Shown in pieces: positions 1 through 39,440 of a stretch of 45,448 nucleotides of DNA; position 1 is the first letter of the stretch, and each line of letters starts with the position of its first letter. Made by a program: the position numbers and the translations under genes. This DNA comes from a virus: IMG/VR virus record IMGVR_UViG_3300034110_000387, positions 1-45,448 of that record; one strand, 5' to 3'. The notes below the pieces were generated by a model. It saw nothing but the letters and a program-made list of their open reading frames with translations, ran no database searches and had not been told where the DNA came from.

Positions 1-2033
1 ACTGTATGACTGAAAGTATATCCTTTCTTTTCATACTTTGCAATATCTACAGCAGAAGAAATTGTAACTTCTTCCATTGTCAGATGATTCACCCACACTT
101 GTTCTTCCTTGAACTCAGCTAATGGTGGCATCACCTTAACCAAATCACCACCTGACTTAGACACGTAGTAACGACAAATGTTTTGTGTCTGATGGTCAAC
201 ACCTTCTTCATCTACGATTACGAGTTTACTACTACGTGGTACCTTCGTACGACTACAAAAGTCAAACTTATTATCGTGTGTTCGGATGTAGTCTTCCGGT
301 AAAATACCATCAACCAAATACTTCTCTGCCATGATCTTAACAATCAGCGCTGAGTGATTTTTATGATTAGGTAAATCCTTCCATTCGTAACGACCTTTCT
401 GTTTCAAACTACCGTCCAATTTAACAGCGGTATAGCTGTTTACATCAGCTACAACAACCTTACTGTAATCACAGCGCTCGAACAGTAACTTGGTGATAGC
501 TTCAAACTCTTTAATCTTTTGAGTGAAAAGTTCCTCATCTTTCCGCTTACAACGGAATGTGATACCATCAGTATTCACAGCGATAATCTGCATATTAGGA
601 ATACTCAGCAATCGCTCCACCATCATATAGATACACAGTTGACCATTGACTGTGATAGTCATCGTAAACTTCGGGTCGTAAAACGGATGATACTCACTGT
701 TAGAATTTCCGTACGATCCATTCAAAGCGAGCTTAATCATCGCGTTCTCAGCAGATTTCTTGTCAAATGTCTTACGTAGCTCGAACAATTGCTGGTATAT
801 GTCACAAAACTCAACACCTAAATGTTCTGGATAAACTTTGTTCTGGATTGAGATCGACGGGTACATGCTCTGGATATCAATGTCCACAATCATATATTCG
901 TCATCAGCTACAACAACTTGCTTCTCTAATGAAGCGTGAGCACCACCAGTTCCTGATACATAACATAACCCATCAATCACTACGTTCAGTGCTTCAGCAA
1001 TGCGATAATTAAACCAATAAGCTTTCTTGAACCCACCACCATCTTTCTTAGGTAGCTTAGCTTTCAGTTCAATTTCTTCTACCCAACCCAAAGGATACTG
1101 CTTTAACATCTCATCAATTTCTTTCTGAATTGGTTTGTTCTTGAACTTAATACGCTTGGTTGTCATTAGAGCATACTTGGCAACATCACCAAGCTCATGT
1201 TCAGGAATATCTGAGAACACACCTTTGGTTTCTGTAATACGCTGCCGCTTCAACCATTCAAGAATAGCGTTGAATTCTGGGCGCGCAAACTTAATGTATG
1301 GAAAAATACAATCCACTAAATCAATGTATGTACGCTTTGTCTTACGAGCTTTTCCTTGACCATCATAGCAGTTGATACCAGCTTTCTCCAGCTCCATAAT
1401 GAAGAACTCACTACCAATCTTGGTGTCGTTCCAGTTCAGAGCATTGAACCCATACTTCTTCTGTAAGTCTAAACGGAAGTCAATCTGAGCTTTACAATTC
1501 TCAAAGAACTTCACTGTTTCCTTTACGTCATGGCAGTTATACTTACACAGCACATCCATTTCAGCAGATGTCAAATACTTCCCAACAGGGAAAGGTAGAT
1601 CTTCGATGTTGTTTGCGCGTGAATTAAACTCAATCATCTTCAAAGATGTAGCCTTTGCCTTGTTGTCGAAATGGTTCATTTTAAACAAATCGAGCTGTTG
1701 TAATAATCGATCTTTCTCTCTGATTTGATACTGCCATTTATTATCACCATAACCTGACTGAATAACTTTCATAGCGTAGTTGTAAATCTCACCAACTGTC
1801 ATGGTTTTATTCTTCAACAACTGCTGCAACACTGGCTCGTCAAAGCCTAAGTTATTGAATCCAGTGAGAATACCGTTCTGTCTACGAATACCACGCAAAT
1901 ATTCAAACATTTCATTACGTTGATCTTTACGTGAAGAAATCTCAAACAGTTTCATCTTACGTGTCTGCATGTCTGCGATACAGCACAGGTAACAGTTCGG
2001 GTAGGTCTCGAGGTCATAAACAAACCAATTCAT
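1..2033 (-). CDS. DNA polymerase, family B, with 3'-5' exonuclease (3' end cut by window)
   Basis: This is the phage replicative DNA polymerase. The protein starts MNWFVYDLETYPNC and runs off the left edge after about 677 codons, so the thumb/C-terminus is missing. The exonuclease domain shows ExoI (D-x-E at about residues 7-9), ExoII (FNNLGFD, about 59-65) and ExoIII (YNCHD, about 165-169). The polymerase palm has motif A (DIDIQSMYPS, about 384-393), motif B (KLALNGSYG, about 434-442) and motif C as VNTDGI (about 486-491) instead of the common YxDTDS. The start codon follows a GGAGATATA-type site, 9 bases past the primase-helicase stop. Gene order (helicase then polymerase) fits a replication operon. 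The family assignment is secure; the phage subgroup is not. Confidence 0.93.
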   Translation of the reverse strand, partial: MNWFVYDLETYPNCYLCCIADMQTRKMKLFEISSRKDQRNEMFEYLRGIRRQNGILTGFNNLGFDEPVLQQLLKNKTMTVGEIYNYAMKVIQSGYGDNKWQYQIREKDRLLQQLDLFKMNHFDNKAKATSLKMIEFNSRANNIEDLPFPVGKYLTSAEMDVLCKYNCHDVKETVKFFENCKAQIDFRLDLQKKYGFNALNWNDTKIGSEFFIMELEKAGINCYDGQGKARKTKRTYIDLVDCIFPYIKFARPEFNAILEWLKRQRITETKGVFSDIPEHELGDVAKYALMTTKRIKFKNKPIQKEIDEMLKQYPLGWVEEIELKAKLPKKDGGGFKKAYWFNYRIAEALNVVIDGLCYVSGTGGAHASLEKQVVVADDEYMIVDIDIQSMYPSISIQNKVYPEHLGVEFCDIYQQLFELRKTFDKKSAENAMIKLALNGSYGNSNSEYHPFYDPKFTMTITVNGQLCIYMMVERLLSIPNMQIIAVNTDGITFRCKRKDEELFTQKIKEFEAITKLLFERCDYSKVVVADVNSYTAVKLDGSLKQKGRYEWKDLPNHKNHSALIVKIMAEKYLVDGILPEDYIRTHDNKFDFCSRTKVPRSSKLVIVDEEGVDHQTQNICRYYVSKSGGDLVKVMPPLAEFKEEQVWVNHLTMEEVTISSAVDIAKYEKKGYTFSHT

Positions 2034-2042
2034 TATATCTCC

Positions 2043-3923
2043 TTAAAAATCTGATTCAAACACCTCACTCTCATCATAAGGAGGTTCTGGTTCTGCCGTG
2101 TCTGGGTCGAATGGTGGGATAGGTATTTCATCCAAAACAACTGGTTGTTGCACGTATTCAGGATTTACTTGTCTACTCTGACTAAAGAAGTCATCTCTGT
2201 CATACACTTGTCGTGTGGCACCATCATAATACCATACACCGGCATCGCCTGTTGTTCCTCTACGACACTTTGGCATCTCTACGTATGTAGAATTCTTCTC
2301 TATGTCATCAGGGTTAGTCTTATCACGATTAATCACAATGTTAATGTGAGCTGACTGTACAAATGTTCCACTTCCTAAAGCACAATATTCTGTTGTCTTG
2401 CGAAGCTTACCATCCTTATCCCGTTCAGGTTTCTTCGTGTGTAATACGTTAACAATACTCACACCAGACTTAACGAAGTTCTTTTCCCACGCTAAGAACT
2501 TCTCCTGCTCGTCCATTGGTAAGAAACGAACCAAGTCTGTCAATACGTCAATAATTACAATATTACAATCGTATTGCTTCACACCACGCTCAATCAACTT
2601 CTTCAGTGATTCAATATTACCTTCACGGTCATCAAGAATACGAAAGCGCTCGTTATATTCATCGTCATGGAATAGATTCTCGTTCAACGCTTTAACATCA
2701 TCGCGTTGTAAGTAGTTCCAAGCATCCATACCGTCATCAAACCAATCAAGGTTCTTCTGCATGTGTAATGATAATAGATCTACAGCATACTCACCAGCAG
2801 TTGCTTCGAGAGAGATGATTAGCGGTTTCATTCCTTCTGCAAAAATCCAGTGGTAGATCATGTTGTTTACGTGTGTAGACTTGCCGCAACTCGTAGAACC
2901 TATGATGTTGACAATCCTACCGTTTGTAGAGAATGCCCGTTTCATCATCTTTTCCATTCGCCACATATACGAAGGTAATGTGATTTTCTGTGCAGTCAAC
3001 ACTTCTTCCACATCAGCCATGATTTCATTGGATGACTTCAAACCCGCTTCCACATATGATTTAGCATTAAAGAAGTCTTTGATGATTTGATCACCACTAC
3101 CATCCTCTAACAACTTGTGCGGGTCTTTAGCTGACCAGTATACAATCTTCACCTTCTCTGACGGTAGAATCTTCAGCATATTCTCTGTAGCTTCTTTACC
3201 TGCAACATCGTTGTCTAAACCGACATAGATTTCCTCATAACGATCTAAGAAATCGTAGTTGTTCTGGCACTGACTTGCTGCACTACCTTCGCCGCAAGTA
3301 GGACTAACTACATGAACACCGTACTTCTTCAGTAATCCGTATGCGGCAACCATATCACCTTCGCCACCAACAATCAAAACTCGCTTACCTGCTGACTTAT
3401 AGATGAACTGACCAGCTAACTGTGAATGTTTACCTGTGCGCCCAACCTTACCGAATGACTTAGGAAGATAACGAATCTTAAACCCCGTTACTTTGCCTTC
3501 TTCCGTTTCTGGATAGTAAATAGAAACGGGTTCACCGTATTTGTTACGCTCTACCATGTGACCAAAGAAACGCAACCATTCAGGCTGTAAGCTACGATAT
3601 GGGCGATCTGTAAATCCAATAGACTTCTTTAATTGACCAATCTGTTCGCCTGTCAGTGGTTCAGCCTTAGCCACTAACGCAAAAGAATGTTTGTGTACTA
3701 CAACACCTTCTTCCACACCAAGCTCTTTAGCGTGACTACTATTATGAACATGATTAGCACTAAATCCTTGACCACAGCTAAAGCAGTAACCGTTGTATGT
3801 TACGTTTCCTTGTTCATCTTCTTCCTGATAAATACTCAGAGCATCAGAACTATTACAAGGTTTCTTATCATCAAATTCACTGGCAATACAGTGAAACGTT
3901 CTATTAATTCGATTACCACTCAA
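2043..3923 (-). CDS. T7 gp4-like primase-helicase
   Basis: A bifunctional replication protein that would make primers and unwind DNA ahead of the polymerase. The N-terminus carries a zinc-binding-like region ending in CFSC (residues 49-52 counted from TTG 3929), with earlier Cys at 25 and 14. The first Cys pair is not the usual CxxC, so the zinc ligand set is atypical. A TOPRIM domain shows GGEGD (about 188-192) and GLDND (about 237-241). The C-terminal RecA-like helicase has Walker A GSTSCGKST (about 344-352) and a Walker B-like CNIVIIDVLTDL. No ATG lies near the start: TTG at 3921-3923 has the better spacing from AAGGAG, and TTG at 3927-3929 is the alternative. It is immediately upstream of the polymerase. 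Confidence 0.92.
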   Translation of the reverse strand: MSGNRINRTFHCIASEFDDKKPCNSSDALSIYQEEDEQGNVTYNGYCFSCGQGFSANHVHNSSHAKELGVEEGVVVHKHSFALVAKAEPLTGEQIGQLKKSIGFTDRPYRSLQPEWLRFFGHMVERNKYGEPVSIYYPETEEGKVTGFKIRYLPKSFGKVGRTGKHSQLAGQFIYKSAGKRVLIVGGEGDMVAAYGLLKKYGVHVVSPTCGEGSAASQCQNNYDFLDRYEEIYVGLDNDVAGKEATENMLKILPSEKVKIVYWSAKDPHKLLEDGSGDQIIKDFFNAKSYVEAGLKSSNEIMADVEEVLTAQKITLPSYMWRMEKMMKRAFSTNGRIVNIIGSTSCGKSTHVNNMIYHWIFAEGMKPLIISLEATAGEYAVDLLSLHMQKNLDWFDDGMDAWNYLQRDDVKALNENLFHDDEYNERFRILDDREGNIESLKKLIERGVKQYDCNIVIIDVLTDLVRFLPMDEQEKFLAWEKNFVKSGVSIVNVLHTKKPERDKDGKLRKTTEYCALGSGTFVQSAHINIVINRDKTNPDDIEKNSTYVEMPKCRRGTTGDAGVWYYDGATRQVYDRDDFFSQSRQVNPEYVQQPVVLDEIPIPPFDPDTAEPEPPYDESEVFESDF

Positions 3924-7796: not shown

Positions 7797-7827
7797 ATAA
7801 AAGAAAGCCCAGCGAATGCTGGGCTTG
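7797..7827 (-). terminator. rho-independent terminator of the NAD unit
   Basis: A 9-bp hairpin AAGCCCAGC-loop-GCTGGGCTT is followed on the minus strand by TTCTTTTATC. It ends the transcript of the NAMPT-like gene. The 22-base hairpin is identical to that at 11976-11997. Confidence 0.85.
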
Positions 7828-7835
7828 TGTGTGTG

Positions 7836-9341
7836 TTACATCTGGTCTAACTGTTCACGTACAAGTTTACGAATTTCAGCAAGACTTGTTTCTTTAACAA
7901 GTTTACCGTCTTCAAATACAACTTCCAGTAAACCTTGTTGTTCTTGTTCACGAGTTTGTTGATCGTATTGAACAAGTTTACCATCAACACGTTCGATACG
8001 CAATAGGCCACAAGCAGATTTCTTCTTACTATCTGTTGCTGGGTCTTTAAATACGTTTACACCTTTGCCGTCTTTTTCTACGTAAGTGGTCTTGACAGCG
8101 CTTGAGTGCGTATCACGAGTAACATACTGATAAGAATAGCTCCCTACACCAAGAACCACAACCCCAGCGAAACCTTTAGCTTCTAACCGTTCGATAATTT
8201 GTTGCTGACGCTCCAATGTAATACTGTCACCAAAGATTGCACCAATGTTGTCGTGCAATAACTTCAATCCTGTAGGAGACAATGAGCCACCAAAGATGTC
8301 CCATAAACATTCAATCAAGCCTTTACGTTCAGCTTCGTTAGTTGAATTTTCATCCCCTGTCAACACTTTAACCGGATCACCTGAATCTGGACGAATTACC
8401 AACTTACCGTTTCGTGCTAGGATTTCATCTTTCAGCGCAGGTAATCCTTCTGTTACGAATTTCCAGAAATCAAAGCTATCCGATACGTGACTGAGAATAC
8501 CTGTCGGAACCACCGACATCAGGTAACGAACATAATCAATCTCCGCTCCTAATTTACTAATACCTTTTTCCTCTACTAAGCTCAGAATAAAGCTTGTTGT
8601 AGTGGAGTGTTCTGTTGCGGCACAAGAGGCACCAACAAGTTCTGTATCAACATTTGCATTGTAGTATTTTTCAGCAAAAGCTAGAGCTGATATGGTATCT
8701 GTTCCGGCGAAACTACACAAATGACCAAACCCACTCATTGCTGCTGCTTGACGACCAAACATACCTCGCGCTGAAAAGTCATGGCACATGAATGGCACTA
8801 AATCTAAAGCCAATCCAGCCCGTTTAAAAGCACCTACAGTATTCTTTAAATATGCAAAGCTTGTGGTAGCACTTGTTTGAATAGGCCAATTTTCATTAGA
8901 AAACACAGTCTCTAAATAGTTTGGTAGCCACTGGAAACCCTCCACAGTATTTGTAAAAGTTACCGGAGAAACACCGTAAGGGACTAAACTACCTTCAGGT
9001 AATGCTTTTACTTGTAAGGGTAAATAACCTAAATCATGCAGTGCTTCAAAATGTGAAGCATCGTAGCTGACCCCGATGGCGCTATCAACATATCTTTTTA
9101 TGTTAGAAATAGCTTTCTCTTTAGGTAAATTGAAGAATGTTTCATTCCACTCATTAATTAAAAAGTCCTTGATAAAATATTGTAAACCGACAAACACCAC
9201 TTCAGCCCCTGATGGTACATTACTCAGTTTACCATTACGTGATGTAAAATTGCTATACACTTTAGTAATAGCAGGATGGTAAGCCATCTTGTGAAAAGTC
9301 TTGTAGTAGTCTGTGTGAACTGTTGCATTAAACACTGTCAT
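7836..9341 (-). CDS. NAMPT-like nicotinamide (phospho/ADP-)ribosyltransferase
   Basis: 501 residues, the usual NAMPT length. Family landmarks are present in order: HDFSARGMFG (about 187-196, cf. the conserved HDFxxRG), ATEHSTTTS with the phospho-histidine at about 245, RPDSGDP (about 317-323), IFGDSIT (cf. the QGDGVD loop) and LGVGSYSYQYVTRDT near the C-terminus. Classic enzymes join nicotinamide to PRPP to give NMN. In phage NARP1 systems, homologues (Namat) use ADP-ribose pyrophosphate and make NAD+ directly. Pairing with the PRPP-synthetase-like gene upstream favours that pathway (inference). It is the last gene before the terminator. A homing-endonuclease-like gene separates it from its partner. 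Confidence 0.93.
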   Translation of the reverse strand: MTVFNATVHTDYYKTFHKMAYHPAITKVYSNFTSRNGKLSNVPSGAEVVFVGLQYFIKDFLINEWNETFFNLPKEKAISNIKRYVDSAIGVSYDASHFEALHDLGYLPLQVKALPEGSLVPYGVSPVTFTNTVEGFQWLPNYLETVFSNENWPIQTSATTSFAYLKNTVGAFKRAGLALDLVPFMCHDFSARGMFGRQAAAMSGFGHLCSFAGTDTISALAFAEKYYNANVDTELVGASCAATEHSTTTSFILSLVEEKGISKLGAEIDYVRYLMSVVPTGILSHVSDSFDFWKFVTEGLPALKDEILARNGKLVIRPDSGDPVKVLTGDENSTNEAERKGLIECLWDIFGGSLSPTGLKLLHDNIGAIFGDSITLERQQQIIERLEAKGFAGVVVLGVGSYSYQYVTRDTHSSAVKTTYVEKDGKGVNVFKDPATDSKKKSACGLLRIERVDGKLVQYDQQTREQEQQGLLEVVFEDGKLVKETSLAEIRKLVREQLDQM

Positions 9342-9344
9342 AAT

Positions 9345-10109
9345 TTATTTCTCCTGTTTTCTATTAAAATTAAAATCTAAAAGTAAGTTAAGAGTTTCTT
9401 CGTTTATTTCATTTCTATCATAAAAGTATTTAGCTAAAAAGTCAAGCTCGTTCTTTTTAAAACTAAAGAACATGTCTGCACCTTTCTCTAAGTTAGATGT
9501 ATAACCTATCACGGCTCTTTTTCCGAAACGGTCTGCTCCACGAACTTCATAACGCTTAAATACCCCTTTTACATAAACAGGACTAACACCAATCACACCT
9601 GTTTCGGAGTTAGGTCTGGCTTTCTCGCAGTTTATGAATTGGTTTAATTTTCTTGGCAACCATACGCAAGTATTTTCCGAGTATAGAATTCCTGATTTTA
9701 GGTCTTTATCTAGCTGATAACCTTTTAAATTGTCAAGGTCTGGGTGGGTCTTTAAACACCAATCCTCAAAGACAGAGAAATTATACCAGCTAGGGTCTAC
9801 TTCGACATCGATGTATGTCCGATACTTTTCTGTTAATTGTGAGGCGTAACACCTGTGCATCATGTTTCCCCATACTGATTGGAACGGAGAGCGCTTATGA
9901 TACTTTTTCCCCATAAAACCCCTGCCTAACACGGAAGGGGTCATCGGATTCTTGAATTCACCTCTTGCTAAATTAACGATGTAAAGTACCTCTTTATTAC
10001 CTGTATCGAACTCAACCAGAACTCTATTTTTGGAAAGCATTTCAATAACCTTACCTCCAGATTTAGTGAGGTTATCCTTCCAAACTTCTTCGATTAAAAT
10101 TTCTGTCAT
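9345..10109 (-). CDS. homing-endonuclease-like protein (HNH/AP2 type)
   Basis: 254 residues. The central block has the layout shared by all three such proteins in this window: W-x-N-M-M-x-RC-Y, then DPSWYNFSVFEDW, LDKDLKSG, and YSENTCVWLPRKLNQ. The C-terminal part (TGVIGVSPVYVKGVFKRYEV) looks like an AP2-type DNA-binding repeat. Such genes usually encode free-standing homing endonucleases. Its ATG lies inside the last 38 bases of the PRPP-synthetase-like gene and its stop is 4 bases before the NAMPT-like gene, so it sits exactly between two genes that act together. Relatives are at 19502-20098 and 26257-26946. Confidence 0.8.
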   Translation of the reverse strand: MTEILIEEVWKDNLTKSGGKVIEMLSKNRVLVEFDTGNKEVLYIVNLARGEFKNPMTPSVLGRGFMGKKYHKRSPFQSVWGNMMHRCYASQLTEKYRTYIDVEVDPSWYNFSVFEDWCLKTHPDLDNLKGYQLDKDLKSGILYSENTCVWLPRKLNQFINCEKARPNSETGVIGVSPVYVKGVFKRYEVRGADRFGKRAVIGYTSNLEKGADMFFSFKKNELDFLAKYFYDRNEINEETLNLLLDFNFNRKQEK

Positions 10110-10941
10110 TGAATTTCCTTACTTCTTCTGTTGTCATGTAACCGCAAACACAATGGTAACAATACACTTTAGATACCAAGTGTTCTAAATTACTTAACTT
10201 GTTTGGCGCAATAAGATGTGTAACATATAGGTCAACCTCTTTAGCTTCTTTTCGTAATAACTCCTTAGTTAACTGTGCAAAAGTATTATTGTAGTCCCCA
10301 ATATCATCTACAATCAACAACTTAAGTCCGGCTACATCACCATTCACTACAGGATTACTAAGCTTTCCTGTTGCTGGGTCACGTTGTTTTGTACAGACAA
10401 TCAATGGAAGCCCGTAGTAATCAGCAATCTCTTGTGCTTTAGATACAGCTCCTTTATCGGGCGCAACTATAGCATCATATTGGTCAATGTCAATATGTAA
10501 TTGTTGTATAGCTACAGCTAACGCTTGGCGCTGTGTAACAATTTCAATTTCAGCATCGCAAAATGAAATTTTCTTGAGCAGTGCATTAGGATTATGTGGA
10601 TCTACAACAACGATTTTGTCAAAAAGAAAACCATTAATATTGAGTAGAAATGTATGTAATCCAGAATTACCTGTGTTAGAGAACTGTCTATCTGCTCTAC
10701 CGTAAGGTAAATACGGAATGAACAGAGTTCGTTCTGCAAATGGATACAGTTCCTCAGCAATGGCGTCATTCAACTGATAAAGCTCATCCAAAATAGTATT
10801 CACCTTCGTAGAAGGATCAACACTAAACACAATACGGTTTGCTGTCTCAGGTAAATCTTTTAAATCAAACCCAAAAGCCCCGTCACTGAAGGTAATACGT
10901 CCAGTGTCAATCTTCTTGTTGTCAATAAATAAATCAATCAT
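10072..10941 (-). CDS. PRPP-synthetase-like protein (possible ADP-ribose pyrophosphate synthase)
   Basis: 289 residues with the ribose-phosphate pyrophosphokinase layout: PYLPYGRADRQ (about 76-86, cf. PYxxYARQDR), VVVDPHNP, VAPDKGAVSKAQEIA (about 159-173) and the PRPP loop VDDIGDYNNT (about 211-220). Ordinary enzymes have VDDMIDTGGT in that loop; here the Thr-Gly-Gly that cradles the 5-phosphate is replaced by Tyr-Asn-Asn. That change could suit a bulkier substrate such as ADP-ribose, as in NARP1 Adps (inference). The ATG overlaps the stop of the macro-domain gene and the 3' end overlaps the homing-endonuclease-like gene. Confidence 0.88.
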   Translation of the reverse strand: MIDLFIDNKKIDTGRITFSDGAFGFDLKDLPETANRIVFSVDPSTKVNTILDELYQLNDAIAEELYPFAERTLFIPYLPYGRADRQFSNTGNSGLHTFLLNINGFLFDKIVVVDPHNPNALLKKISFCDAEIEIVTQRQALAVAIQQLHIDIDQYDAIVAPDKGAVSKAQEIADYYGLPLIVCTKQRDPATGKLSNPVVNGDVAGLKLLIVDDIGDYNNTFAQLTKELLRKEAKEVDLYVTHLIAPNKLSNLEHLVSKVYCYHCVCGYMTTEEVRKFNDRNFNRRSLEG

Positions 10942-11396
10942 ACACCCTCCAACGAATACACAGTAATATCAAAATCTTTCAGGACGAATGCTACCATTTC
11001 TAAAACAATATTCCAATCCCCACCAGCACGATCAGCGCCCATTTTGTATGGTAATCCAATCTTTAATGTTTTATTTAAGTGAGATACTTTTTGTAAACAA
11101 GAAGCCAACGCACCATAATTTAAATGACGAACACCTTGACCATAACCATTTTGAGCTACCATGTTAACAACCATCCCAGAGCGTCTATTTGTCTCGCTCG
11201 TCCAACCGAAAGTGATCTGACTAAGTTCCGCAGGAATTTCTTTATACGCAACAAAAGCATCAGGAATACGATTCTTAATCTCTAAAGCAATCCCACTACC
11301 CATAACACCTTTGTTGTTACACACATGAATAAGGACATCCACTTCCCCATCAATTAACGCTGATACAGCATTTCCTTTCTTAAATTTAATACTCAT
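10938..11396 (-). CDS. macro-domain (ADP-ribose-binding) protein
   Basis: 152 residues, a single macro domain. The glycine-rich CNNKGVMGSGIALEIKNR segment (about 26-43) and GADRAGGDW (about 119-127) match the ADP-ribose pocket of the Poa1/ALC1-type branch, which removes the 1''-phosphate from ADP-ribose-1''-phosphate or deacylates ADP-ribose derivatives. It is directly upstream of, and overlapping, the PRPP-synthetase-like gene, so it probably feeds or protects the same ADP-ribose/NAD+ pathway (inference). The ATG follows TAGGAGGTTTTAA at the end of an inverted-repeat leader. Confidence 0.9.
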   Translation of the reverse strand: MSIKFKKGNAVSALIDGEVDVLIHVCNNKGVMGSGIALEIKNRIPDAFVAYKEIPAELSQITFGWTSETNRRSGMVVNMVAQNGYGQGVRHLNYGALASCLQKVSHLNKTLKIGLPYKMGADRAGGDWNIVLEMVAFVLKDFDITVYSLEGV

Positions 11397-11496
11397 TTAA
11401 AACCTCCTACAATCAATTATCAACGCAAGTTGATACCAACACACCACTTCATCTAAATAATCGCTTAGAATGTCTCCTAGAGCGTTTTAGAGATGG
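11397..11496 (-). repeat. inverted-repeat leader element (copy A)
   Basis: Read on the minus strand, this stretch starts AAAACGCTCTAGGAGACATT, CTAAGCGATTATTT and ends ATAATTGATTGTAGGAGG, the ribosome site of the macro gene. An internal hairpin TATCAA-CTTGCG-TTGATA is visible. The same building blocks occur at 15692-15818, 15961-16060, 39308-39440 and 42600-42682. Confidence 0.6.
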
Positions 11497-11682
11497 TTAC
11501 ATCTTCTCTTGTGAGATAGCTACAATGTCTGCCAAGAACTTTTCTTCTAACCTCTTTTTCATATTAACGTGATTCAGGATGTTGGCTAAGTTAGTTAAGA
11601 TATTGTCAGTGACAGGTAATGTATCTGATAACAACTTACTGTCTTCTTTATACCGTTGCACACGTTGTTCAATTTTGTTCAT
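11497..11682 (-). CDS. hypothetical small helical protein
   Basis: 61 residues, MNKIEQRVQRYKEDSKLLSD, helical and charged. The ATG follows GAGGATAGAAAATA. It is the second gene of the NAD unit transcript. No family recognised. Confidence 0.65.
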   Translation of the reverse strand: MNKIEQRVQRYKEDSKLLSDTLPVTDNILTNLANILNHVNMKKRLEEKFLADIVAISQEKM

Positions 11683-11708
11683 TATTTTCTATCCTCATTC
11701 TAGAGCGT

Positions 11709-11882
11709 TTAAACACAAGGTATCATACGTAAGCTATATTTGTAATGGTCTAAATTAATAGATGCGCCGTTCATAATACGTTCCGCTTTATTTTTAGTTA
11801 CACCTTTACCACCACAAATGGTGTGAATAACTTTACCAGTAGAATCTTCAACCACAATTACAACATATTTAGGTTCGTTCAT
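11709..11882 (-). CDS. hypothetical small protein, first gene of NAD unit
   Basis: 57 residues (MNEPKYVVIVVEDSTGKVIH ... YSLRMIPCV). A beta-type start is followed by a lysine-rich helix. A strong GAGGAG site precedes the ATG, and a consensus promoter ends 31 bases upstream, so this is the lead gene of the 11.9-7.8 kb unit. The stop TAA is inside the TTTAAACGCTCTAG motif found in the leader elements. No family recognised. Confidence 0.72.
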   Translation of the reverse strand: MNEPKYVVIVVEDSTGKVIHTICGGKGVTKNKAERIMNGASINLDHYKYSLRMIPCV

Positions 11883-11912
11883 CTCAATCTCCTCATTTGT
11901 TTCAATGAATAC

Positions 11913-11941
11913 ATCTTACACTGTTCGAGTGCTTATGTCAA
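11913..11941 (-). promoter_or_regulatory. sigma70 promoter of the NAD unit
   Basis: TTGACA (11936-11941), a 17-base spacer and TAAGAT (11913-11918) on the minus strand. It sits between a terminator and the first gene of the NAD unit. Confidence 0.85.
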
Positions 11942-11966: not shown

Positions 11967-11997
11967 GAAATGAAAAAGCCCAGCGAATGCTGGGCTT
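11967..11997 (-). terminator. rho-independent terminator
   Basis: Hairpin AAGCCCAGC-loop-GCTGGGCTT followed by TTTTCATTTC on the minus strand. It ends the 12.0-12.9 kb unit. The hairpin is the same 22 bases as at 7806-7827, so the NAD unit is flanked by two identical hairpins. Confidence 0.82.
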
Positions 11998-19472: not shown

Positions 19473-19501
19473 GGACTTTAATTTTTTAAGGGGGTTTGTG
19501 T

Positions 19502-20098
19502 ATGAGGAATAAAAGATCGCGCAAAAATGTTTTCAATGTTGGTGTAAATGATGTAGGTTACTCAGTACACCAGACAACTGTTTTAAATGGTAAACAAGTC
19601 ATAACTTGGTCGTGCCCATACTATAAGAAATGGTACAATATGCTAAGGCGTTGTTATGATAGTAAATTTCTAGTCAAAAATCCAACGTATATTGGCTGTT
19701 CTGTAGATCCAGACTGGTTATATTTAAGTAACTTCATCAAATGGGTAGATCGACAACCAAACAGAAATTGGGAAAAATGTGATTTAGATAAAGATTTACT
19801 TGTTAAAGGTAACAAATTTTATAGCGAAAACACTTGTATATTTATAACAAGCACTCTAAACAATTTTATAGTTAATATTTCAAAGGACGTGAAAGGTTAT
19901 TATTTTAAAGACGGTAAATTTTACGCTAGATGTAGAAACCCTTTAACTAAAAAGACAGAGCATTTAGGAGCTTTTTCTTGTGAAGCCTCCGCAAAATCAC
20001 GCTGGAAGTCTCGAAAAACAGAGATCGGTTTGCTTTTATGTTTAGATGAGTGTGCGGAGGTTAGACCTGCTCTTTTGAAACTTATAGATCAGCTGTAA
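19502..20098 (+). CDS. homing-endonuclease-like protein (HNH/AP2 type)
   Basis: 198 residues starting MRNKRSRKNVFNVGVNDVGY after AAGGGGG. It has the same order of motifs as its two relatives: CPYYKKWYNMLRRCYDSKF, a YIGCSVDPDWLYLSNFIKW block, LDKDLLVKGNKFYSENTCIF, then an AP2-like C-terminal repeat (GKFYARCRNPLTKKTEHLGA). It has its own promoter and sits between units, as expected of a selfish insertion. Confidence 0.8.
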   Translation: MRNKRSRKNVFNVGVNDVGYSVHQTTVLNGKQVITWSCPYYKKWYNMLRRCYDSKFLVKNPTYIGCSVDPDWLYLSNFIKWVDRQPNRNWEKCDLDKDLLVKGNKFYSENTCIFITSTLNNFIVNISKDVKGYYFKDGKFYARCRNPLTKKTEHLGAFSCEASAKSRWKSRKTEIGLLLCLDECAEVRPALLKLIDQL

Positions 20099-26256: not shown

Positions 26257-26946
26257 TTAAAATCTTAAGGTTTTAGTTACCCTACCTTCAAGTAAATCAG
26301 TCTCAAGTAATAGAGCTTTTTCTTTCAACCTTTCATACACTCTCAAGGATATTTCACCCAACCACAGATACTTCTCAGCTATGCTATGTAGGGCAATTGC
26401 TTTGTGTTTTTGGTAATACTGATGGGCTTCTAGTTCCGTATTAAAAGTTTTTATTTTTGCTATGTACTTCCCTTCACAAGCTACGCTTGATTGGTATTTA
26501 CAATTGCTTTTGGACACCCCTATAAGCTCTCCGTTTGTCTTATCGGAGCTTCTACTGTGCAGACACATATTTATTACATTAGGTACAAACTCACAATTAT
26601 CGGGAGAGTAATGAGTACCATCTCCAACTATATCCTTGTCTAAATGATTACCTAAATAGTTCTTAGTTAAAGCCCATTCTCTGAACTGCATGAAGGATAA
26701 CCAATCCTCACATACCGATACTCCTATATAACTTTCATTATGATTGTCAGCATATTCGTATGAATATTTACCGTCTTGACTAGTACACCTAGTCAGCATA
26801 TTTGACCAGTGTCTGTAGATAGGACAATGCCAAACTTTACCATCACCTAACCTTAGAAACACAGGATAGTCTGCATCATTTATACCAACACATCTAGTTA
26901 GTTTATTACCTTTTGGACCAACCTTACCTTTACTCTTTCTACTCAT
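26257..26946 (-). CDS. homing-endonuclease-like protein (HNH/AP2 type)
   Basis: 229 residues starting MSRKSKGKVGPKGNKLTRCV. Motif order as in its two relatives: CPIYRHWSNMLTRCTS, YIGVSVCEDWLSFMQFREW, HLDKDIVGDGTHYSPDNCEF, then an AP2-like repeat (IGVSKSNCKYQSSVACEGKY). A strong AGGGGGAAGTAA site and its own promoter and terminator make it a complete, self-contained unit inserted against the direction of the flanking plus-strand genes. Confidence 0.82.
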   Translation of the reverse strand: MSRKSKGKVGPKGNKLTRCVGINDADYPVFLRLGDGKVWHCPIYRHWSNMLTRCTSQDGKYSYEYADNHNESYIGVSVCEDWLSFMQFREWALTKNYLGNHLDKDIVGDGTHYSPDNCEFVPNVINMCLHSRSSDKTNGELIGVSKSNCKYQSSVACEGKYIAKIKTFNTELEAHQYYQKHKAIALHSIAEKYLWLGEISLRVYERLKEKALLLETDLLEGRVTKTLRF

Positions 26947-39307: not shown

Positions 39308-39440
39308 TACCTCAATCCTCCTGTTAAAATCAATTATAACCGCCCTATAAACGCCTACAATCAATTATATTCATAAAGTCATACATACGTAGCCATAAAT
39401 AAAATAATCGCTTATAATCGTTCCTAGAGCGTTTAAATGT
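39308..39440 (-). repeat. inverted-repeat leader element (copy D)
   Basis: On the minus strand: TTTAAACGCTCTAGGAACGA, TTATAAGCGATTATTT, then ATAATTGATTGTAGG followed by GCGTTTATA (pairing with TATAAACGC) and a second TATAATTGATT before the AGGAGG of the next gene. No protein frame. Confidence 0.6.

Follow-up and report, generated by a model that had tools for sequence, protein, structure and literature searches.

A probable phage NARP1 operon with a macrodomain protein as candidate accessory hydrolase

The window, a 45,448-base viral fragment, encodes a primase 59% identical to the primase of Rheinheimera Barbavirus phages. Six minus-strand open reading frames lie in one direction at the place where an earlier, sequence-only reading had put them, in the order ORF1, ORF2, macro, adps, HNH and namat, and its proposal of a single six-gene transcript bounded by a promoter and a terminator was borne out (Table 1). 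That reading had also described the macro gene as overlapping the synthetase gene, and the macro stop and adps start do share the letters ATGA, a 4-nt overlap; the HNH start overlaps the adps 3' end by 38 nt. The promoter form is enriched throughout the window, with 27 sites against 8.7 expected and none of 100 shuffles reaching 27. The 22-nt terminator stem occurs only twice in the window, where no copy is expected by chance, and the two identical stems thus flank the operon as a short direct repeat. A search of Rfam gave one sub-threshold sRNA match, which lies over the upstream terminator. Domain calls within the operon are NAPRTase/NAMPT (5.5e-34), Pribosyltran (1e-8) and Macro (0.011 in Pfam).

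Table 1. Genes and signals of the operon and its immediate flanks, with positions in the window
Feature	Position	Strand	Remarks
Terminator stem of the preceding unit	11976..11997	-	Identical to the 7805-7826 stem; just upstream of the operon
Sigma-70-type promoter, TTGACA-17-TAAGAT	11913..11941	-	10/12 match to consensus
Lead ORF1, 57 aa	11709..11882	-	No relatives found; system membership unsupported
Lead ORF2, 61 aa	11497..11682	-	No significant relatives; system membership unsupported
Macrodomain protein (macro), 152 aa	10938..11396	-	BT1257/SCO6735-like ALC1/TARG1-class fold; predicted ADP-ribosyl hydrolase
Adps (ADP-ribose pyrophosphate synthetase) homologue, 289 aa	10072..10941	-	Start overlaps macro stop
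Free-standing HNH homing-endonuclease-like gene, 254 aa	9345..10109	-	Overlaps adps 3' end; probably a passenger
Namat (nicotinamide ADP-ribose transferase), 501 aa	7836..9341	-	Signature GSYSYQYVTRD (PMC12774641)
Intrinsic terminator closing the operon	7805..7826	-	Next promoter at 7783-7756

NARP1 is a known counter-defence against NAD+-depleting immunity (PMC12774641, PMC11559045, PMC13232231), and sequence comparison makes us very confident that the enzyme pair of this operon is NARP1 (Adps plus Namat) rather than a pair for ordinary salvage. The earlier reading had proposed as much for a synthetase-like and a NAMPT-like protein, and the Namat signature, the Namat tree and the conservation of the partner all support it. 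Namats are told from NAMPTs by the diagnostic motif GSX-(S/T)-X-(Q/N)-X-(N/V)-TRD, a selectivity clamp (PMC12774641), which the window Namat carries with aromatic residues at positions 3 and 7; F392, Y396, T398, R399 and D400 (numbering of PMC12774641) map onto the aligned SPbetaL1 motif. Compared with solved structures, the window protein matches SPbetaL1 Namat (9w5x) at E 6e-120 and human NAMPT at 1e-52 to 1e-53. A tree with KVP40 NadV as its root places it with the Namats of Vibrio phages; the same group includes ICP1 NrsB and, at greater distance, SPbetaL1 Namat and the enzymes of Felixounavirus and mycobacteriophages. By structure scores and tree alike it groups with characterised Namat and not with NadV or NAMPT.

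Of 72 Namat loci, 70 have an Adps homologue no more than about 1.5 kb away, and the neighbour of the window Namat retains the catalytic residues: K185, R187, H116 and D212-D213 are invariant across the aligned homologues and correspond, in PRPP synthetases, to the catalytic Lys/Arg and the residues of the metal site. The ICP1 system NrsAB, which restores NAD+ in infected cells and defeats SIR2-HerA (PMC11559045), is 60% identical to the window Namat (NrsB) and 30% identical to the window Adps. The NARP1 systems of SPbetaL1 and Bas63 and ICP1 NrsAB resemble the window operon in gene pair, order and compactness, in the Namat clamp motif and in the Adps catalytic residues. The window differs from all three in the macro gene overlapping adps, in the HNH gene between the pair and in its DYNNT loop.

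That loop had been taken to fit an ADP-ribose-using enzyme (VDDIGDYNNT), an argument that proved weak. Across about 70 Adps homologues the PRPP loop varies; it mostly reads DDICDGGxT, with DDICDGAAS in ICP1 NrsA, DDLLDAGGT in the closest relative of the operon (L068) and DDIGDYCGT in an Alteromonas phage. Since most Adps homologues, including that of ICP1, carry a different loop, we reject it as a sign of ADP-ribose use; judged from these alignments, DDIGDYNNT is a local loop variant that says nothing clear about substrate.

The remaining genes of the transcript are less readily tied to the pair. Two relatives of the HNH gene lie elsewhere in the window (19496-20098 and 26257-26946), and different HNH genes occupy or adjoin the same junction in PT11-V22, L068 and Vibrio 1.063, as expected of homing genes. 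The HNH gene is probably a homing passenger, and its membership of the system is not supported. The suggestion that the two lead genes might be further members did not hold up, as no relatives of ORF1 or ORF2 appeared in Pfam, PHROGs, NCBIfam, the fetched loci or the phage records; an apparent ORF2-like gene before macro in L068 is unsupported (E 0.74).

The macro gene accompanies NARP1 repeatedly, and the partnership is genuine. In a whole-record search, 18 of 50 macro-bearing contigs carried both macro and NARP1, and in nine of these 18 viral contigs the two lie less than 1.5 kb apart (P about 5e-6), against 1.65 expected under uniform placement, a null that is too generous because accessory genes cluster in phage genomes. 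Some of the named phages were chosen after their macro matches were known, and the fair test is therefore the sample of 83 loci fetched by macro alone: thirteen of them have a NARP1 gene within 8 kb, at a distance of 1.5 kb or less in 11 of the 13 (P 2.5e-4, or 1.6e-3 once near-duplicates are removed). The earlier reading had proposed searching other phages for macro genes joined to the pair. Eight lineages of named phages have one within about 1.5 kb of it, and the gene order differs among them: before adps in Barbavirus 19A, before namat in Vibrio 1.063, between the pair genes in Vibrio K408, JSF12 and Thalassa, and after namat in Otagovirus, Pakpunavirus and Saclayvirus. NARP1-linked macros are scattered over a tree of 90 macro proteins, along which the state changes at least 12 times. 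The sequence patterns used found no close macro relatives in bacterial genomes. In phage PATM (L067) a macro gene overlaps an 'orotate phosphoribosyltransferase' gene; this partner is not Adps, and the locus is not NARP1.

The association is also optional, and the description of the module as self-contained is not supported, since macro occurs without NARP1 and NARP1 without macro. In Barba25A macro occupies the same position but NARP1 is missing, and immediately after macro come the genes found downstream of namat in Barba19A; macro and the pair thus come and go separately, and a macro kept without NARP1 must have a use of its own. Conversely, the records of ICP1, qdvp001, PT11-V22, Kayvirus, Vetrix and DAC15 contain NARP1 but lack a macro of this kind. 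In L068 macro is truncated, starting at about residue 79 and so lacking H24 and N27. The L068 Namat belongs to another type, yet over about 53 residues at its C-terminus it is 91% identical to the window Namat, which points to recombination inside the gene.

These observations bear on the strongest alternative, that macro is an independent counter-measure, either a hydrolase or sponge of ADP-ribose-type immune signals or a reverser of ADP-ribosylation, which shares an accessory site with NARP1 without metabolic coupling. Such independence agrees with the 32 of 50 macro-bearing contigs that have no Namat match (many being fragments), with the Barbavirus site that holds macro with or without the pair, with the truncation of macro in L068 while NARP1-type genes persist, and with a survey arguing that phage macrodomains act mainly on small ADP-ribose derivatives (PMC9503650). 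However, clustering within 1.5 kb in three gene orders and many lineages (9 to 11 events) is more than the sharing of a broad accessory zone would give, and in the window macro is coupled to adps by the 4-nt overlap. We regard full independence as rather unlikely, though a serious contender.

As for the macro protein itself, its macrodomain family is present in over 1,700 phage records, including relatives of T4-like Tk.4. The window protein matches PHROG 335, annotated as a phosphatase, at 5.6e-37 and DarG at 4.8e-10, and its structure model (pLDDT 94) matches solved macrodomains at Z 16-21, which confirms the assignment. VIA-align ranks BT1257 first (Z 21.1), followed by TARG1 (18.7), SCO6735 (18.6), DarG (17.8) and Poa1p (16.6), and a profile of 65 phage macro sequences likewise places BT1257 and SCO6735 first (84-93 bits) and Poa1p lower (60-71 bits). 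SCO6735 strips ADP-ribose both from thymidine modified by DarT and from acidic residues in proteins; its Q85A variant loses activity on both DNA- and protein-linked ADP-ribose, and Asn27 holds Gln85 in place (PMC9411070). The window macro shares the fold and has the equivalents of Gln85, Asn27 and His24 as Q82, N27 and H24, with V25 also common to it and SCO6735/BT1257; within the phage family Gln82 is conserved in 65/65 sequences, Asn27 in 65/65 and His24 in 63/65.

The likeness has limits. Identity to SCO6735 and BT1257 is 27-28%, hydrolase activity being predicted only, and the DNA-positioning lysines of SCO6735, K34 and K89, are replaced in the window by S34 and G86 (Lys occurs at position 34 in 1/65 and at position 86 in 0/65 sequences), so that the substrate of macro may not be DNA. 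The Lys84/Asp125 dyad of TARG1 is absent as judged at the Lys84 position, which is Gln82 here (residue roles, PMC9411070). DarG catalytic Lys80 is also replaced by Gln82, and the NCBIfam DarG model reaches 39 bits where its cut-off is 250. Taken with the gene neighbourhood, the fold and active-site residues suggest that macro is probably a hydrolase of ADP-ribose adducts.

The earlier reading had macro freeing ADP-ribose from blocked forms such as ADP-ribose-1''-phosphate. Release of ADP-ribose stands as a sensible role; the specific phosphatase does not fare as well, both sequence and active site being nearer to those of BT1257/SCO6735. A Poa1p-type ADP-ribose-1''-phosphatase would recycle ADP-ribose-1''-phosphate, or decayed ADPR-pyrophosphate, to ADP-ribose as metabolite repair for NARP1. 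Shared residues led to this proposal for phage Adele (PMC12846349), PHROG 335 carries the phosphatase annotation, and Poa1p is a clear structural relative of the window protein; by our own reasoning, such an activity would also explain why the gene is tied to Adps, which makes a 1''-pyrophosphate. Against it, Poa1p trails BT1257 and SCO6735 in the profile comparison, and of Poa1p His23, Asn26 and Ser30 only the His and Asn are kept, Ser30 being replaced by Val31. The invariant Gln82 takes the place of a Lys in TARG1 and DarG, and the alignment shows nothing equivalent to it in Poa1p. We therefore consider a Poa1p-type function distinctly unlikely. An ordinary PRPP synthetase and NAMPT for NMN-type salvage is highly improbable: NCBIfam names both proteins so and SPbetaL1 Namat still yields NMN from PRPP in vitro (PMC12774641), but the Namat clamp motif is intact, solved Namat is much closer than NAMPT, the Adps homologue scores 88 bits against the ribP_PPkin cut-off of 113, and searches of the operon with Pfam, PHROGs and NCBIfam identified no NMN adenylyltransferase.

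On balance, we favour reading the locus as a phage NARP1 operon in which a macrodomain hydrolase serves as an accessory enzyme. Gene identities, association and fold come from comparison, and we infer catalysis, substrate and coupling as follows. Adps would transfer pyrophosphate from ATP onto free ADP-ribose, and Namat would join the product to nicotinamide, rebuilding NAD+ from the products of TIR, SIR2 or SEFIR NADases; these steps are known in homologues and, by analogy, very probably apply to the window pair. Macro, co-translated with Adps, would most likely take ADP-ribose off an ADP-ribosylated target, which may be a small ADP-ribose adduct, or else DNA or protein that a toxin or defence enzyme of the host has modified. 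Its reaction would both reverse the modification and supply free ADP-ribose to Adps. That macro sits there to feed NARP1 is a suggestion we make tentatively, from its fold, active-site residues and gene neighbourhood. Further still, and unlikely as a complete account, the three proteins may form a closed repair loop in which macro strips ADP-ribose from DNA (of the DarT type) or protein and Adps and Namat remake NAD+ from it with nicotinamide, undoing the modification and recovering the spent NAD+, a loop that unrelated phages would have assembled repeatedly.

An accessory enzyme able to deliver ADP-ribose has a precedent in the NARP1 operon of mycobacteriophage DyoEdafos. RyDEP, encoded inside that operon, converts cyclic ADP-ribose to ADP-ribose, from which purified Adps and Namat make NAD+ (PMC13232231). 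RyDEP is an RyR-domain glycosidase of 2'/3'cADPR, whereas the window macro has an unrelated fold. A macro freeing ADP-ribose for NARP1 is itself already in print for phage Adele (Pakpunavirus), which has the same three components (PMC12846349). In Adele, however, macro lies downstream of namat with one gene between, and the comparison drawn was with Poa1p; in the window it lies upstream, overlaps adps and compares with SCO6735/BT1257. What this analysis adds is a quantified association that recurs in varying gene order, a site that holds macro with or without NARP1, and an active site of the SCO6735 type.

NARP1 acts only on free ADP-ribose, and many defences leave ADP-ribose on DNA, protein or small signals. 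If the proposed role is true, a recurrent hydrolase partner would broaden the set of defences that NARP1 can answer, and would give the phage macrodomain family its first testable role.

Comparison of namat, which encodes one of the paired NARP1 enzymes, with its counterpart in the operon's closest relative (L068) revealed 39% identity over the first 440 residues and 91% over the ~53 C-terminal residues. The clamp motif, the Namat selectivity signature, is GSWGFLDRSSRD in L068, unlike that of the window, and is common to L068 and a further locus, L084. Together, this uneven identity and the different clamp motif are a sign of recombination inside namat. HNH genes adjoin namat in this comparison.

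The 45-kb phage fragment carries three mutually related HNH homing-endonuclease-like genes, and the adps-namat junction in other phages holds HNH genes unrelated to these. In L041-L043, Namat is broken into two ORFs separated by ~560 bp, as would be expected if an intron or other inserted sequence lay between them.

Uncultured phages L024, L092 and L145 place macro between adps and namat. In phage PATM (L067), a macro gene overlaps a phosphoribosyltransferase gene annotated as orotate PRTase; this partner is a phosphoribosyltransferase other than Adps, and the two genes may form a second macro-PRTase pair.

Each of the two small lead genes, ORF1 and ORF2, has the 11-nt motif AAACGCTCTAG after its stop codon. 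Three exact copies occur in the window versus 0.6 expected by chance, and a fourth site has one mismatch. The consensus sigma-70-type promoter TTGACA-17-TANNAT is strongly enriched across the whole window (27 sites versus 8.7 expected).

Positions of the genes and motif copies compared
Feature	Source	Positions
namat	window	7836-9341
namat	L068	9861-11495
Related HNH genes	window	9345-10109, 19496-20098, 26257-26946
macro and PRTase genes	PATM (L067)	1884-3450
11-nt motif, exact	window	11477-11487, 11700-11710, 39424-39434
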